From Candidatus Woesearchaeota archaeon (GTDB lineage Archaea; Nanobdellota; Nanobdellia; Woesearchaeales; UBA10216), in the NCBI GenBank assembly GCA_016188145.1, contig JACPIJ010000053.1, positions 1 to 37,243 on the forward strand: 37,243 nucleotides of DNA, in the 5' to 3' direction. Position 1 is the stretch's first letter; each line of letters begins with the position of its first letter. Under the pieces are notes generated by a model. It had not been told where the DNA came from, did no database searches, and worked only from the letters and a program-made list of their open reading frames with translations. The position numbers and the translations under genes are program-made. This document shows positions 11,625 through 36,360 of this stretch, piece by piece.

Positions 11625-12071
11625 TCACTTCTTCATCATCTTCTTCAGCTCCTTCTCGAAGCTTTGCAGGTCTGCAAACTCCCGGTAGACGGACGCAAAC
11701 CTTATGTAAGCAACCTTGTCAAGCTTCTTGAGCTTTCGCATCACCAGTTCACCAACGTGGCTGCTGCTGACTTCCTTCTTCTCCTCGTTCCTGAGTTCGG
11801 CCTCTATCTCATCAACTGCGTGGTCTATCTTTTCCTGCGGTATGGGCCTTTTCTCGCAGGCCTTGGTCATCCCTGAGCGTAGCTTCTCGCGGTTGAAAGG
11901 CTCCCTTCTCCCGTCCTTTTTCACGACAACAAGGTCAAAGGGCTCAATCCTTTCGTAAGTCGTAAACCTTTTTTTGCAGCGAAGGCATTCTCTCCTGCGC
12001 CGTGTTGCTTCGTTTGCCTCGCGCTTGTCAACTACCCTGTGATCTTCGTTGCCGCAGTAGGGACAGTTCAT
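11625..12071 (-). CDS. nrdR: NrdR, transcriptional repressor of ribonucleotide reductase
   Basis: A 148-residue protein with the NrdR layout: a zinc ribbon CPYCG...CLRCKKRF (residues 3-35) followed by an ATP-cone domain (VVKKDGRREPFNREKL onwards). NrdR senses ATP/dATP and represses ribonucleotide reductase genes. It sits downstream of a B12-dependent reductase and an adenosyltransferase on the same strand. NrdR is common in bacteria and rare in archaea. Its first four codons are repeated 99 bases upstream (12159-12170), on the far side of a twin-hairpin element. Confidence 0.95.
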   Translation of the reverse strand: MNCPYCGNEDHRVVDKREANEATRRRRECLRCKKRFTTYERIEPFDLVVVKKDGRREPFNREKLRSGMTKACEKRPIPQEKIDHAVDEIEAELRNEEKKEVSSSHVGELVMRKLKKLDKVAYIRFASVYREFADLQSFEKELKKMMKK

Positions 12072-12170
12072 TTTAAGCCTCGTTTTTGGATTGAACCTTT
12101 CTTCGTCTTAGAGACGAAGACTGTTGGCTCTCCGCCAACATTTTCGCAAAAGGGTCATGGGACAGTTCAT
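12060..12170. mobile_element. Inserted twin-hairpin element D with a 12-base direct repeat
   Basis: The 12-mer GGGACAGTTCAT occurs at 12060-12071, covering the first four nrdR codons, and again at 12159-12170. Between them are hairpins 12100-12108 with 12112-12120 (9 bp, 3-base loop), 12122-12128 with 12134-12140 (7 bp, 5-base loop) and TTTT-cgc-AAAA at 12141-12151. The layout fits an insertion with a target-site duplication. The distal copy leaves an ATG at 12170 that opens a 20-codon frame ending at 12108. No transposase is encoded, so movement would need factors in trans. Confidence 0.6.
12108..12170 (-). other. Possible upstream ORF before nrdR (20 codons)
   Basis: The duplicated nrdR start (ATG at 12170) begins a frame reading MNCPMTLL and stopping with TAA at 12108, inside the first hairpin of element D. 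A TATA box (TTATAAATA on the minus strand, about 12205-12214) would start transcription near 12180, so this ATG is the first one met. It could be a relic of the original nrdR start, or reduce translation of nrdR. Confidence 0.35.
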
Positions 12171-12188: not shown

Positions 12189-12821
12189 TCAGGTGCGGTT
12201 ATAGTATTTATAACTTGGCTTTTCTTCTTTCACATCGGCTTTCTTGTTCTCAACCCTTGCCATTACGTGGAAAAGCGATGACAGCCGGTTGGCATACTTC
12301 AGCAGCAATGGGTTGATTTTTGCCGTCTTTGCTAATCTTACCAGCTGCCTTTCGGCCCTTCTGGCTACTGTTCTGGCAAAGTGCAGCAGTGCAGCTTCCC
12401 TGTCCCCTCCGGGGAAAATGAAGGACCTTTGCGGCTCCAGGAACTTTTCGGCATCATCTATGGCCTTTTCAATTCTCTCAACATGTTTTTCGGTTATCCT
12501 CGGCATGCCATCCAGCTCTGCCGCGAGTTCAGCGCAGATGGTGTGCACGTCATCCTGGATGGACTTCAGCAGGCCTACAGTACTTTCCCTGAGAGGGAAA
12601 GCTTGTCGGCCGGTGCCGACATCGTCTTCTGATTCTTTCCCTGAGAGGGAAAGCTTGTCGGCTGGTGCCGACATTGTAGAGAAAGCGGCAACAACGCCAA
12701 CAACGGCGTTGAGCTCATCAAAGCAGCCCAGTGCCTCTATCCTTTCATCATCCTTGTCTATGTCATACTTCCCGAGTATGCAGGTCGTCCCGTCATCCCC
12801 GGTGCACGTGTAGCATGCCAT
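12189..12821 (-). CDS. Cobalamin adenosyltransferase (PduO type) with an inserted palindromic segment
   Basis: A 210-residue ATP:cob(I)alamin adenosyltransferase. It has the N-terminal TCTGDDGTT phosphate loop, DDERIEALGCFDELNAV, and the C-terminal block FIFPGGDREAALLHFART and RRAERQLV, ending in NRLSSLFHVMAR. It makes adenosylcobalamin, the cofactor of the class II reductase encoded just upstream. Relatives have about 10-15 residues between the DELNAV helix and the LLKSIQ helix. Here residues about 48-81 are extra and are encoded by two copies of a 40-base twin-hairpin unit. The reading frame is intact and the catalytic blocks are unaffected. Confidence 0.9.
   Translation of the reverse strand: MACYTCTGDDGTTCILGKYDIDKDDERIEALGCFDELNAVVGVVAAFSTMSAPADKLSLSGKESEDDVGTGRQAFPLRESTVGLLKSIQDDVHTICAELAAELDGMPRITEKHVERIEKAIDDAEKFLEPQRSFIFPGGDREAALLHFARTVARRAERQLVRLAKTAKINPLLLKYANRLSSLFHVMARVENKKADVKEEKPSYKYYNRT
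12583..12674. repeat. Two twin-hairpin units inside the adenosyltransferase gene (element E)
   Basis: Two 40-base copies, 12583-12622 and 12635-12674, are 39/40 identical; the single difference is in a hairpin loop. Each copy is CTTTCCCTgagAGGGAAAG (8 bp, 3-base loop), CT, then TGTCGGC-nnnn-GCCGACA (7 bp, 4-base loop). The 52-base period is not a multiple of three, so the copies are read in different frames (APADKLSLSGK and VGTGRQAFPLRE). Short outer arms CTACA (about 12574) and TGTAG (about 12676) may close the whole structure. Confidence 0.9.
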
Positions 12822-12989: not shown

Positions 12990-15900
12990 TCATACCTCGC
13001 ACTTGCTGAAGCCGCACGTTTCGTTAAGGCAGCTGTGGCAGCCGTTCTCAATCTTTAGCGTTTTGTTGCCGCATGAGGGGCACAGGCTCAGCTTCATGTC
13101 AGAGGCTGTTATTTCTGTGCCGTTTTTGCCGTGTTCCTGCCTTGCTGCTGCGGCTGCCGCAATCTCCAGGCCTGCAGCTGCCTTTGTGAACACATATCTT
13201 CCCCCATCTTTTTTGAGCTGGCCGCTCCTTGCTGCGTGGTATACTGTTGTCAGCCTTCCGTTTGGCAGCGAAATCACATCATCCCCTCTCATCAGCTTCT
13301 GCTCTCCATCAGCCTCAACGTCGTAAGATTCTTCCGCGGCTTTTTGGAACTCTGATTTCTGCGTGCCCGTGCTCAGTATTGGATAGCGAGAGCCTTCCCT
13401 GTAGATGGTTATGCCCTTGAGGCCGTTCTTCCACGCGTCCAGGTAGACGTTTGATATTGTCTCAGGGTCAATGTCCTCAGGCAGGTTTACTGTTGATGAT
13501 ATGCTGTGGTCAACGTATTTCTGCCACAGGCCCTGAGTCATTACCCTCTTGCCCGGGTCGATGAAATGCGCTGTCCTGAAGAAATGCGCTGGCAGTATGC
13601 GCTTCAGCTCTTCGGCATCCTTGCATTTTTGCGCTTCTTCTGTCAGGTTGTGCTGCTGGATGTAGGCATCTACAGTCGAATGGAATATCTTGAAGAACAT
13701 GTTGCTGCCTCCGGAACTCAGCCCCTCAGACCTCCTGGTGTAGTAAAGCGCGAATACCGGCTCTATGCCTCCGCTGACTCCTATGAAGTTCCTGTCGCCA
13801 AGCTTGTAGCCGAGCACTATGTTTGATATAGTCCCTGTTGGCGCTATTGAAAGGATTGCGATGTTCCTGAGCCCCTTCTTCCTTGTCAGCTCCTTTGTTT
13901 CGTCTGTAAGCACTTCCTGGAAGAAGCTTCCTTTGCTGTAGGCCTGGTACTCGAATATCGGCGATGGCGTTTTCTCCTCTGCCAGGTTTGCCGATGCCTG
14001 ATATGCCGTGTTGGAAAACAACTTGGCAGATTCTTCAAGTATCTTTACGCCTTCCTCGCTGTCATAGCCAATGCCAAGCTGGTTAAGCATGTCTGCTATG
14101 CCCATAACCCCAAGCCCGACCCTTCTGGTCTCGTAAGCCGCCTTCCGCTGCTTTTCCATGGGATTCAGGAGCTCGTTCCATGTAACAACATTATCAAGGA
14201 ACCTCACGGCAAGGGCTATTGTTTCCTTTATGCTGTCCCAGTCTATCTCTGCTTTTCCTGTGTATCCGTTTTTGACAAACCTTGACAGGTTTACCGATGC
14301 CAGGTTGCATGCCCCGCCGTCTTCAAGTGGGACCTCAGCGCAAGGATTCGTGCTCGCTATCGGCCTTCCGACATAGTTGGATGGCGAGTACTTGCTCATT
14401 GTGGACCAGAATATCAGCCCTGGCTCGGCTGTCCTGTAGTTGCCTTCTATAAAGGCGTTCCATATGGTTCTTGCCTTTACCAGCCGCTTTATCTCATTGG
14501 TTTCCCTTGAATTGTAATAAAGCATGAAGTCTCCTGCGTGCTTGATTGCAAGGTCAAACTCGGAGCTCCTGTCAGGAAAGACAATGTCGCCAAACATGTC
14601 CCTCTTCCCAACATCAGCCAGGTCCCTCTCGCTTAACGGCCCTGCGCCGTGCTCTGACAGGAACTTGTTCAGCTCTTGCAGCGTGTCAAAGGCTTTCAGC
14701 AACCGGTATTTTTCTATCGGCTTTGATGGTATACCGTATGAGTAGTGCACTGCCCCTCCTTGCATGATTCCAAGCCCGGATACCGCCTTGTCTTTCAGGT
14801 AAACAAGGAGCTTTTCAGTCCCGTACTTGTTCTGTTCCTCGACTGCCTGCATGAACTCGTCTGTTACTTTGAGGCTGATATTTGCAAACCTCACCTGCGT
14901 GTTTTCCCTCACCTGCCTTTCTATCTCCCTAAGCTGCTTCTCGTTGAACTGGCTGGACCACTTGCACTGCTCAACTATCTGGTTTGTCACCCAGTTCGGT
15001 ATCTTCTTCACGTTTATGAAGTGCGGGCTGTCAGGGTGCTTTATGTCGATGGTAAGCATAAGGGCTCCCCTTCTTCCTGACTGCCCAATCAGCCCTGTGG
15101 TTAGTGAAAACAGCTCCATGAAGGAAACGCTTCCTGTTGATGTATCAGCCGCGTTGTGAACTACGGAGCCTTTCGGCCTGAGCACAGAGATATCAACCCC
15201 AATCCCCCCGCCATAAGAATAAGTCCTGGCGCATTCGTAAGCTGACTGGTAGATTGCTTCTATGTTGTCCTCTGCTATGAGCGAGACAAAGCAATTGGCC
15301 AGTGTCTTTAGCCTGTATAAATCCCCTCCTCCGGCAATAACCCTTCCCCCAGGCACAAAATAGCCCTCGTACAGCGCCCTGTAGAACCGTGCTGCCCACT
15401 CCTGCTGCTTTTCAGGCGTTGACTCAACAGCCGCCATAAAGGCAGCCAGCCTCGAAAAAGAATCCTCAGGCCTTTTCTCAATCAGCTTGTTGCCAAGGTC
15501 TTTCAGGAAGTATTTCTTCTGGTAGATGCTTGTTGCCAGCTCATTCGCATTAAGGTAATCGCTGGGATGAACTGGCAGTTCCCCTTTCTTTTGCATGTCT
15601 TTCAGGTAGAACAGGAGGTTCTTGTAAGCCTCAATCCTGTCGTATCCTATGATTGATGCGAGCTTGCTCTTATGGGCAAACATGTCAAGCAGCGCTGTCT
15701 TTTCCCCATCGCTGCCCTTTGCAGCTTCAGCAGCAGCCTGCCTTAGCTCTGCCCTCTTTGCCCTGTAAAGTATATACGCTTTCGCTGTTTTTGCGTGGCC
15801 TTCCTCTATCAGAACTTTTTCAACAGCATCCTGGGCTTCTTCCACTGTTGGTATCTTCTCGTTTTTTGCCATAAAATCAACAACAAGGCTTGTCAGGCGC

Positions 15901-16064
15901 TCAGCCTCTTTCCTGTCGCTTCCGCCAACAGACCTTGCAGCCTTCATGATGGCAGAGGTTATTTTTTCAGGGTCAAAGTTAACGACCCTTCCGTCCCTCT
16001 TGACTACCTTGGAAATCCTGCTGACAGACATGGCTTTCCCTGCATCGAAGGCTTTTGGTGTCAT
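12990..16064 (-). CDS. nrdJ: Adenosylcobalamin-dependent (class II) ribonucleotide reductase
   Basis: A 1024-residue enzyme converting ribonucleoside phosphates to deoxyribonucleotides. It has an N-terminal ATP-cone (VVKRDGRVVNFDPEKI, about residue 20), the first redox cysteine in LANCFVSL (about residue 257), the radical-site motif NPCAE (about residue 577) followed by GGACNLASVNLSRF, and a C-terminal zinc ribbon CPSCGN...CGFSKC. Class II is supported by size, the tail and the adjacent adenosyltransferase. GAGGT eight bases before the ATG at 16064 supports this start; MSVSRISK at 16031 is an alternative. No small radical subunit gene (nrdB) is nearby. Confidence 0.93.
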   Translation of the reverse strand: MTPKAFDAGKAMSVSRISKVVKRDGRVVNFDPEKITSAIMKAARSVGGSDRKEAERLTSLVVDFMAKNEKIPTVEEAQDAVEKVLIEEGHAKTAKAYILYRAKRAELRQAAAEAAKGSDGEKTALLDMFAHKSKLASIIGYDRIEAYKNLLFYLKDMQKKGELPVHPSDYLNANELATSIYQKKYFLKDLGNKLIEKRPEDSFSRLAAFMAAVESTPEKQQEWAARFYRALYEGYFVPGGRVIAGGGDLYRLKTLANCFVSLIAEDNIEAIYQSAYECARTYSYGGGIGVDISVLRPKGSVVHNAADTSTGSVSFMELFSLTTGLIGQSGRRGALMLTIDIKHPDSPHFINVKKIPNWVTNQIVEQCKWSSQFNEKQLREIERQVRENTQVRFANISLKVTDEFMQAVEEQNKYGTEKLLVYLKDKAVSGLGIMQGGAVHYSYGIPSKPIEKYRLLKAFDTLQELNKFLSEHGAGPLSERDLADVGKRDMFGDIVFPDRSSEFDLAIKHAGDFMLYYNSRETNEIKRLVKARTIWNAFIEGNYRTAEPGLIFWSTMSKYSPSNYVGRPIASTNPCAEVPLEDGGACNLASVNLSRFVKNGYTGKAEIDWDSIKETIALAVRFLDNVVTWNELLNPMEKQRKAAYETRRVGLGVMGIADMLNQLGIGYDSEEGVKILEESAKLFSNTAYQASANLAEEKTPSPIFEYQAYSKGSFFQEVLTDETKELTRKKGLRNIAILSIAPTGTISNIVLGYKLGDRNFIGVSGGIEPVFALYYTRRSEGLSSGGSNMFFKIFHSTVDAYIQQHNLTEEAQKCKDAEELKRILPAHFFRTAHFIDPGKRVMTQGLWQKYVDHSISSTVNLPEDIDPETISNVYLDAWKNGLKGITIYREGSRYPILSTGTQKSEFQKAAEESYDVEADGEQKLMRGDDVISLPNGRLTTVYHAARSGQLKKDGGRYVFTKAAAGLEIAAAAAARQEHGKNGTEITASDMKLSLCPSCGNKTLKIENGCHSCLNETCGFSKCEV

Positions 16065-24147: not shown

Positions 24148-25404
24148 TTACTTCGCTGCCTTGCCTTGTGTTGTTGTCATAGCAGGCTTATTCATTTTAG
24201 CTGTCACCATTTCCAGCGCATCTGCAAGTTTGTCTATTTCCTCGTTGGTGTTGTAGAGATAAAAGCTTGCCCTGGTTGTGCCTGGAATCCCAAGCAGCCT
24301 CGCGAGCGGCATTGTGCAGTGGTGCCCGCCTCTTACAGCTATCCCTTCTGCGTCAAGAATGGCTGAAACGTCGTGGGTGTGTACGCCATTGACGTTGAAC
24401 GCGACAAGCCCGCCCCTTTTGCCGGCTTCTGGCCCGTAAATCGTGAGGTCTTCTATCTGCTTCAGCCTTTCCATTGCCTTCCTTGTCAGGATTTTTTCGT
24501 GCTGGTGCACGTTTTCCATCCCAACCTTCTGCAAATAATCAACCGCCGCCGCCAGCCCAACAGCCCCTGCCATGTTTGGAGTGCCTGCCTCGAATTTCCA
24601 CGGTAGCTCGTTCCACTTGGCATCTTCGAAGCTTACCTCGCTTATCATGTCCCCTCCGTAAATGACCGGTTCAATTTTTTCAAGCAGCTCTTCTTTGCCG
24701 TAAAGCACCCCAACTCCTGTCGGGCCCAACATTTTGTGCGCTGAAAAAGCCATGAAGTCGCAGCCGAGCTCCTTTACGCTTACAGGCATGTGCGGCACTG
24801 ACTGTGCAGCATCCACAACAGTCAGAGCGCCAATTTCCTTTGCAGCCGCTATGATTTCCCTGGCTGGATTTATCGTGCCAAGAACATTTGAAACGTGCGT
24901 GAAGGCAACTATTTTCGTTTTCTTCCCTATTGTTTCCCGCAGCTGCTGCAGCTTTAATTCGCCATTTCCATCTATTTCCAAAAACCTGAGTTTTGCCCCT
25001 GCCCTTTTCGCTGCCTGCTGCCACGGGACAATATTGCTGTGGTGCTCCATCTGGGTCAGCACTATTTCGTCATTTTTTTGCAGCTGCCGTGAAAGTGAGC
25101 CTGCCAAAACATTAATGGACTCTGTTGTGTTCTTGGTAAATGCGACTTCTTCCATTCCTTTCGCTGCTATGAAACTCGCAACTTTCTCATGAGCCTCGTC
25201 ATACGCCTCAGTAGCTTCCTGGCTCAGCCTGTGCACCGCCCTGTGGACGTTTGAGTTGTATGTTTCATAGTAGTCGTTCATTGCCTGTATTACCTGCCTC
25301 GGCTTTTGCGTTGTGGCAGCGTTGTCCAGGTAAACAAGCGGCTTTCCGTAAACCTTCCTTTTCAGTATAGGGAAGTCTTCCCTTATTCTCTCGGCGTTAA
25401 GCAT
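24148..25404 (-). CDS. sufS: SufS, cysteine desulfurase (group II)
   Basis: A 418-residue PLP enzyme releasing sulfur from cysteine for Fe-S assembly. It has YLDNAATTQKP at the N terminus, the PLP-stacking His in TQMEHHSNIVPW, the DAAQSVPHMPV aspartate, the PLP lysine in FSAHKMLGPTGVGVLYG, and the active-site cysteine loop RGGHHCTMPLARLLG. The short RGGHHC loop marks it as SufS rather than IscS/NifS. It overlaps sufD by eight bases and is followed 9 bases later by sufU. Confidence 0.96.
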   Translation of the reverse strand: MLNAERIREDFPILKRKVYGKPLVYLDNAATTQKPRQVIQAMNDYYETYNSNVHRAVHRLSQEATEAYDEAHEKVASFIAAKGMEEVAFTKNTTESINVLAGSLSRQLQKNDEIVLTQMEHHSNIVPWQQAAKRAGAKLRFLEIDGNGELKLQQLRETIGKKTKIVAFTHVSNVLGTINPAREIIAAAKEIGALTVVDAAQSVPHMPVSVKELGCDFMAFSAHKMLGPTGVGVLYGKEELLEKIEPVIYGGDMISEVSFEDAKWNELPWKFEAGTPNMAGAVGLAAAVDYLQKVGMENVHQHEKILTRKAMERLKQIEDLTIYGPEAGKRGGLVAFNVNGVHTHDVSAILDAEGIAVRGGHHCTMPLARLLGIPGTTRASFYLYNTNEEIDKLADALEMVTAKMNKPAMTTTQGKAAK

Positions 25405-36264: not shown

Positions 36265-36360
36265 CTCCCCACGGTCACCGTAGGGGAGAGAAGCCCAAGT
36301 CGAGTAAAGCTCGACTGGGCACAGTCGCCATAAAGGCGACTTGTGTGAAGTCCAAAGGAC
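36265..36360. repeat. Element G: three or four adjacent hairpins in a divergent promoter region
   Basis: Hairpin zero: 36265-36274 with 36278-36288 (10 bp, one bulge, loop TCA). Hairpin one: 36298-36304 with 36310-36316 (7 bp, plus an internal T-G, extended by CCC/GGG with a bulged A as in element F). Hairpin two: 36323-36329 with 36335-36341 (7 bp, 5-base loop). A short GTCC-aaa-GGAC follows at 36350-36360. CCCAAGTCG lies at 36294-36302. The intergenic region 36181-36437 otherwise holds only promoter sequence. Confidence 0.8.

Follow-up and report, generated by a model that had tools for sequence, protein, structure and literature searches.

The 37,243-nt stretch of DNA analyzed here (the window; contig JACPIJ010000053.1 of assembly GCA_016188145.1, Candidatus Woesearchaeota archaeon; the host genome, labelled G000, is 84.6% complete) carries an adenosyltransferase gene with two nearly identical palindromic units inside its open reading frame. 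The question raised by this locus is what these units are and how they came to lie within the gene while its frame stayed unbroken. The features involved are the following.

11625..12071, minus strand: neighboring gene for an NrdR-type repressor (Pfam Zn_ribbon_NrdR and ATP-cone)
12189..12821, minus strand: host gene, PduO-type ATP:cob(I)alamin adenosyltransferase, 210 aa, intact ORF (ORF, Pfam, NCBIfam, solved-structure relatives)
12583..12624, minus strand: element copy 2, exact 42-nt twin-hairpin insertion, in a different reading frame (repeats, codon alignment, fold, boundaries)
12625..12634, minus strand: 10 nt of host coding bases between the two insertions (AATCAGAAGA), equivalent to the S-E-D codons of relatives (codon alignment with G002, G005, and G007)
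12635..12676, minus strand: element copy 1, the upstream one in the gene, exact 42-nt twin-hairpin insertion (repeats, fold, empty site in 12 relatives, boundaries)
12990..16064, minus strand: ribonucleotide reductase large chain, next to the host gene (Pfam Ribonuc_red_lgC and ATP-cone)

The host protein matches Pfam Cob_adeno_trans (1.7e-45) and NCBIfam PduO_Nterm (3.1e-46, exceeding the cut-off), and a 13-sequence protein alignment shows that its invariant residues are retained and its reading frame is unbroken, in agreement with the statement of the initial annotation that the frame and the catalytic blocks are intact. The ribonucleotide reductase next door is likely one user of the cofactor that the product of the host gene makes.

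Each unit is made of two perfect hairpins, TGTCGGC-N4-GCCGACA and CTTTCCC-N5-GGGAAAG, with AG as the joint and three bases ahead. Copy 1 reads CA-ATGTCGGC..GCCGACA-AG-CTTTCCC..GGGAAAG between the flanks TCTA^AATC and encodes TMSAPADKLSLSGK, while copy 2 lies between the flanks AAGA^TACT and encodes about DVGTGRQAFPLRES. The copies are direct repeats starting at 12583 and 12635, i.e., with a spacing of 52 bases, and are identical at 39/40 positions over the 40-nt core and at 40/42 over the exact 42-nt unit. As 43-nt units, they fold into two hairpins, a 7-bp stem with a 4-nt loop followed by a 7-8-bp stem, with folding energies of -21.3 and -21.2 kcal/mol (z of -5.4 and -4.7; 0/200 shuffles as stable). 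Repeat finding and folding against shuffles thus bear out the twin-hairpin units, 39/40 identical inside an intact ORF, that had been described earlier. The 52-base spacing, unlike the 42-nt length of each insertion, is not divisible by three, so the two units are read in different frames. They begin at different codon phases, and the earlier observation that the same DNA is read in two frames holds.

Adenosyltransferase orthologues were found in 20 other genomes, six of them of the same genus, by a protein search of 59 relatives. In the codon alignment, the same 84 nt are missing in all six same-genus orthologues, and the 13-sequence protein alignment has a gap of 28 columns in 12/12 of the others (six from the same genus and six more distant). 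The linker of the relatives is ~11 residues long, and the window protein is exactly 28 residues longer there, corresponding to 84 nt, or 2 x 42. The initial annotation had the insert replace a loop of 10-15 residues; the greater length stands, and the loop is refined to ~11 residues with exactly 28 extra. The empty sites in all 12 aligned orthologues, including the distant ones, support its view of an insertion rather than an old protein feature. A second adenosyltransferase fragment, at a contig end in G005 (G005:C28:2-247, L027), has 84% identity to the window protein, reflecting strain variation or contamination.

When the flanks are joined without the 42-nt units, the sequence becomes TTC TCT AAA TCA GAA GAT ACT GTA (FSKSEDTV), which resembles FSESEDTA in G002 and FSDSEDAM in G007. 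Because the 10 intervening bases are host coding sequence, these are two separate 42-nt insertions and not one 92-nt pair, and the earlier description as a single inserted pair has to be corrected, the S-E-D codons lying in between. Two 42-nt insertions would be the simplest account of the gene as read from its sequence.

It had also been proposed to align the protein with PduO enzymes and to map the insert on a structure. In the AlphaFold model of the adenosyltransferase, insert residues 52-64 and 66-76 have a pLDDT <50 and lie between the confident helices 26-49 and 78-100; the closest solved structures are those of PduO adenosyltransferases (TM by target ~0.8-0.9). The model thus places the insert in a loop of low confidence that separates two helices, in a PduO fold that is itself well modelled. 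This mapping concerns the adenosyltransferase insert only, the AlphaFold model of PheS with its 30-aa insert, built with six sequences, having a pLDDT of 54.7.

The second copy could have a different origin from the first. A tandem duplication of a 52-bp unit is ruled out, as the spacer and the flanks are unrepeated. The second copy could still have been made locally, 10 bases off, through a template switch at the hairpin or a comparable event, an explanation that concerns this copy only. The two copies differ at only two of 42 positions, and no further copy of the 42-mer was found in the host genome at ≤3 mismatches in 28, which keeps local copying in play. However, that genome is only 84.6% complete, the 10 host bases and the flanks are unduplicated, unlike in simple slippage, and the class is scattered over many unrelated loci. 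We regard local copying as conceivable but rather doubtful.

The scatter just mentioned was established in eight genomes of the genus, all metagenome assemblies of Candidatus Woesearchaeota from several projects and mostly from groundwater. A covariance model built from the two adenosyltransferase units finds the family in 7/8 of the same-genus genomes, with a single weak match (E 0.92) among the 51 other genomes. A model rebuilt from 14 variants gives 65 matches at E<=0.05 in 8/8 genus genomes and, with the same settings, none in 11 genomes from the family's other genera. A model-free census of perfect hairpins (stems >=7, gaps <=6), in which adjacent pairs were counted, yields 23 pairs over 328 kb of the host genome (7.0 per 100 kb) and 32 pairs over 390 kb of G007 (8.2 per 100 kb). 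Neither 400 kb from four control genera nor shuffled sequence contained any. A looser census gives 25 clusters in the G000 stretches, 63 in those of G007, and 11 in those of G006; the controls have 2. The search of Rfam with the element returned no family match, and BLAST of the unit against phages and plasmids gave chance-level matches only. A scan of viral contigs with one degenerate hairpin (TGTCGGCNNNNGCCGACA) was unspecific and was dropped. Two further twin hairpins, both recognized by the hairpin census and by sequence, lie in the window.

12100..12140, no strand assigned: twin hairpin belonging to the same class of repeats, in the intergenic space that separates nrdR from the adenosyltransferase gene, [TCTTCGTCT-tag-AGACGAAGA]c[TGTTGGC-tctcc-GCCAACA]
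36298..36341, no strand assigned: twin hairpin of the CCCA..GGGCAC..TGTG architecture, intergenic, just upstream of the ORF at 36345

Intergenic copies related to the former occur at G000_C56:19908 and in G001_C10 and G001_C114. At 12085-12160 of the window and at L208, L210, and L211, intergenic twin hairpins are found within an outer inverted repeat (about TTGACCTTT...AAAGGTCA), which suggests that hairpins are nested in larger palindromic repeats there. Nesting is also seen in genes, the Hel308 gene of G007 having the 42-mer inside a larger repeat that is present without it in Bud32.

Several architectures can be distinguished within the class. In the alignment of the covariance-model members, 98% of the cells in the stems are paired and both sides have changed in 10/14 pairs (0/500 shuffles); the alignment leans to structure, since its members were found by the model. 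The stems of the 48-nt family are 100% paired, with both-side changes at 9/14 pairs. The latter type has the form W-A-hairpin-W'-hairpin-T-W, with a central 4-mer that is reverse-complementary to the flanking word on either side (122/144 matches on each side; mean 91 and maximum 104 in shuffles). The flank/center/flank words include GCAC/GTGC/GCAC, GTGC/GCAC/GTGC, GCTC/GAGC/GCTC, and GTAC/GTAC/GTAT. At L270:5884-5935 and L223:14610-14661, the central 4-mer covaries with the flanks, one outermost base being free. The complementarity of the words may represent either stem extension or guide-like targeting. Further types are CCCA..GGGCCC..TGGG, seen as a 51-nt insertion in PAP2, and CCA..GGACC..TGG, and arrays of four and five hairpins also occur. 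Element length is canalized, the span being 42 in 28/36 members of the 48-nt family and 43 in 9/13 of the 51-nt family. The stems are drawn from a small palette and the loops are nearly all different: in a tally of perfect stems only, ATTCCGC has 19 copies with 17 loops in G000, G006, and G007, as if the loops of recurring stems were re-made or highly mutable. Two near-identical multi-hairpin arrays, L174 and L176 (G007:C19:1213 and G007:C8:62592), were noted, one of which lies antisense within a radical SAM ORF. Outside the genus, low-copy W-A-hp-W'-hp-T-W elements whose stems are unrelated are seen in G052, G120, and G016 (L383:407-459, L384:485-536, L385:1449-1501, L386:1597-1648, and L387:1471-1524); in terms of taxonomy, the 48-nt architecture recurs at low copy in G016 and in two genomes from a different family within the order.

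In addition to the adenosyltransferase, at least a dozen housekeeping genes of the genus are affected. Empty sites were judged by codon alignment against congeners and other genera, and most net lengths were measured via tblastn pieces.

24148..25404 of the window, minus strand: sufS, with an empty site for the 48-nt element present in the G007 orthologue (codon alignment, frame test)
SufS, G007: 48 nt; the sufS gene of the window has an empty site (codon alignment)
Hel308: 48 nt, with a different site occupied in G007 (codon alignment)
GatA: 48 nt, empty sites in relatives
TFIIE-alpha: 48 nt, empty sites in relatives
PAP2: 42 and 51 nt, empty sites in relatives
PheS: 90 nt (30 aa) between conserved blocks, empty sites in relatives
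DNA polymerase DP2: about 87 nt, empty sites in relatives
Bud32: about 87 nt, empty sites in relatives
IleRS: 69 nt in G000, and 36 + 51 nt at other sites in G007
Geranylgeranyl-reductase-family (GGR) protein: 75 nt, empty sites in relatives
TctA: about 84 nt, empty sites in relatives
DUF2304: 54 nt, empty sites in relatives

All net insertion lengths are multiples of three, for which the chance under random length is ~2e-7 with 14 host insertions. The lengths argue that the element DNA would be read by the ribosome; frame preservation is not a clean test of selection, because the element lengths are intrinsically 3n and out-of-frame events are lost. Apparent frame-shifting insertions were rejected as antisense ORFs over intergenic elements. 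Covariance-model matches in the genes of ribosomal protein S3, SecY, and radical SAM proteins were not counted, as a clean empty-site alignment was not achieved, the SecY element overlapping the assigned start region only; a case in signal peptidase II was unalignable and likewise left out. In Hel308 (L270:5126-6742 and L168:616-2343), different elements occupy different sites in two species of the genus, and likewise in IleRS; some genes have therefore been hit repeatedly. A 3-nt direct repeat, GCA, is found at the SufS and Hel308 insertion sites, and none is evident at the adenosyltransferase (ATR), PAP2, and PheS sites.

The elements contain 2.67 stop triplets per 100 over both strands, compared to 6.31 +/- 0.34 in palindromes with permuted stems. 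The number of open frames per element is 4.86 of 6 versus 3.48 in the permuted palindromes, and 35/99 elements are open in all six frames. The encoded peptides are unrelated and mostly polar (mean hydropathy -0.49), both orientations and several frames being used.

One could argue that the host keeps the hairpins for a function of their own, as regulatory RNA or DNA structures involved in mRNA stability, termination, or chromatin sites, their placement in genes being either a by-product or adaptive. The many intergenic copies, some of which lie by gene ends, and the perfect, covarying stems are compatible with this, but closely related species have the elements at different positions, the sites in their orthologues being empty, the use of both orientations and several reading frames is hard to reconcile with it, and the Rfam search also speaks against it. 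We consider a host-selected function improbable.

Another scenario is that the hairpins are spliced from the RNA as archaeal introns with a bulge-helix-bulge, or skipped by the ribosome in translational bypassing, such that the protein would lack the insert. The strong hairpins at the insertion points and the location of insertions between conserved blocks of essential enzymes, e.g., PheS, are points in its favor. However, neither removal nor bypass calls for a 3n length or for freedom from stops, and the confirmed host insertions are without exception 3n, with stops strongly depleted; the elements are, moreover, also common intergenically. This scenario is accordingly judged very unlikely. 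An artefact of repeat-driven chimerism has next to no probability: all the genomes are metagenome assemblies and palindromes are hard to assemble, but the same class appears in eight separate genomes from several projects and the insertions are codon-exact.

We therefore favor, with considerable confidence, the reading that the adenosyltransferase feature is very probably two insertions of a 42-nt member of a genus-specific, non-autonomous class of mobile palindromes, translated as tolerated loops. The two insertions would be independent, or one a copy of the other. The element would consist of two or more abutting perfect hairpins with a small set of stems and freely varying loops. As its lengths are 3n (42, 48, 51 nt, and composites) and it is poor in stops on both strands, an insertion into a gene would usually add 14-17 mostly polar residues and keep the frame. 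Insertions in tolerant loops would survive, and a surviving element would be transcribed and then translated as part of the protein. From the frame preservation, we infer that the inserts are retained in mRNA and protein, and the effect on the adenosyltransferase is presumably near-neutral.

The elements may move through recognition of their hairpin fold, possibly in single-stranded form; that the hairpins are perfect and covary while their loops vary hints at structural recognition of the kind seen in Y1 single-strand transposition. Searches for a mobilizing enzyme found Y1_Tnp (PF01797) in 2/8 genus genomes, the host genome being one, with a weak match, and no such gene in G007, the genome richest in elements. 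Reverse transcriptases are present in 3/8 genus genomes and do not track the elements, nor do tyrosine recombinases, which are present in every genus genome and every control. No parent transposon was found in the Y1 and reverse transcriptase searches of the genus genomes. A bolder proposal, which we put forward only tentatively, is that of a new class of mobile DNA, namely modular twin hairpins recognized by structure and not by sequence, with 3n length and few stops in six frames, for which genes are safe landing sites. The central word of the 48-nt type may choose the target and the mover may be an enzyme, with low-copy relatives in the order and a burst in the genus.

With these results, the range of in-frame "selfish" insertion into core enzymes, which took in two bacterial genera and a handful of cases in Methanocaldococcus, grows to include an entire archaeal genus, in which the density is high. 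The hosts include genes usually held to be insertion-intolerant (DP2, IleRS, PheS, SufS, Hel308, and Bud32), and the elements look pre-adapted to coding DNA, with 3n lengths and few stops on either strand. This apparent pre-adaptation, together with the many separate insertions with close empty-site controls, makes the mobile-DNA origin of protein segments directly testable. The covarying architecture without an obvious transposase points to an unrecognized mobilizing system. For annotation, inserts of 14-30 residues in proteins of these archaea may be repeat-derived.

Compared with known systems, the elements resemble REP/REPIN sequences, which have two inverted hairpin modules, small bulges, and a presumed single-strand DNA mobility (PMC3116915, PMC6006769), in their inverted hairpin pairs, CCCA[hp]GGGCCC[hp]TGGG and W-A-hp-W'-hp-T-W. 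REPs, however, lie outside genes, have GTAG/GTGG at the foot, and come with a RAYT (TnpA-REP) of their own (PMC3116915, PMC6006769), whereas here the feet are GCAC, GTGC, GCGC, CCCA, CCA, or CNA and never GTAG/GTGG, many elements lie inside conserved genes, and Y1 genes occur in only 2/8 genomes. The combination of hairpins with short words complementary to target-like words in the flanks, as in the central 4-mer of the 48-nt family, is shared with the ends of IS200/IS605, where the guide is found on the 5' side of the hairpin foot (PMC6006769), and with the MITEs derived from them; unlike in IS200/IS605, there is no association with TnpA, and the complementarity may be simple stem extension. 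The elements also show the traits of MITEs in the broad sense, being short and multi-copy, with inverted repeats and polymorphic insertion sites.

Closer parallels are the palindromes that are fused into proteins. The initial annotation regarded an archaeal equivalent as new, but the review PMC2229807 cites Suyama et al. 2005 for potentially coding palindromic repeats that are fused to protein genes in Methanocaldococcus jannaschii, so that the archaeal case is not wholly new. By description, the likeness lies in archaeal palindromes fused in protein genes. The M. jannaschii elements are reportedly ~100 bp long and in three groups, with only three in genes. The Wolbachia palindromic elements, bacterial protein-coding palindromic repeats cited in the same review (Ogata et al. 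2005, PMC2229807), are alike in being protein-coding palindromes, the sequence check being an exact-pattern genome scan only. In that scan, a 27-nt exact pattern of the unit had no match in 84,980 species genomes, the Rickettsia palindromic elements (RPE) being compared by description.

The RPE are dispersed and lie in frame in conserved genes (Ogata et al. 2000/2002; PMC2229807 and PMC10969869). They are stem-loops of 105-146 bp with terminal inverted repeats and no known transposase, and one host enzyme that was tested, Gmk, retained its activity (PMC2229807). The present elements differ from one long stem-loop of ~105-146 bp in being twin hairpins of 42, 48, and 51 nt, with modular stems, variable loops, 3n lengths, and the use of several frames, and in belonging to a different domain of life. 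They share with RPE a genus-restricted dispersal of palindromes, in frame, in many unrelated conserved protein genes. Of the Rickettsia/Wolbachia-like loop insertion that had been suggested for this locus, the in-frame insertion and the genus-wide dispersal are therefore upheld, the relation to Rickettsia being one of analogy only. The best reading is that the elements would work like RPE, by analogy.
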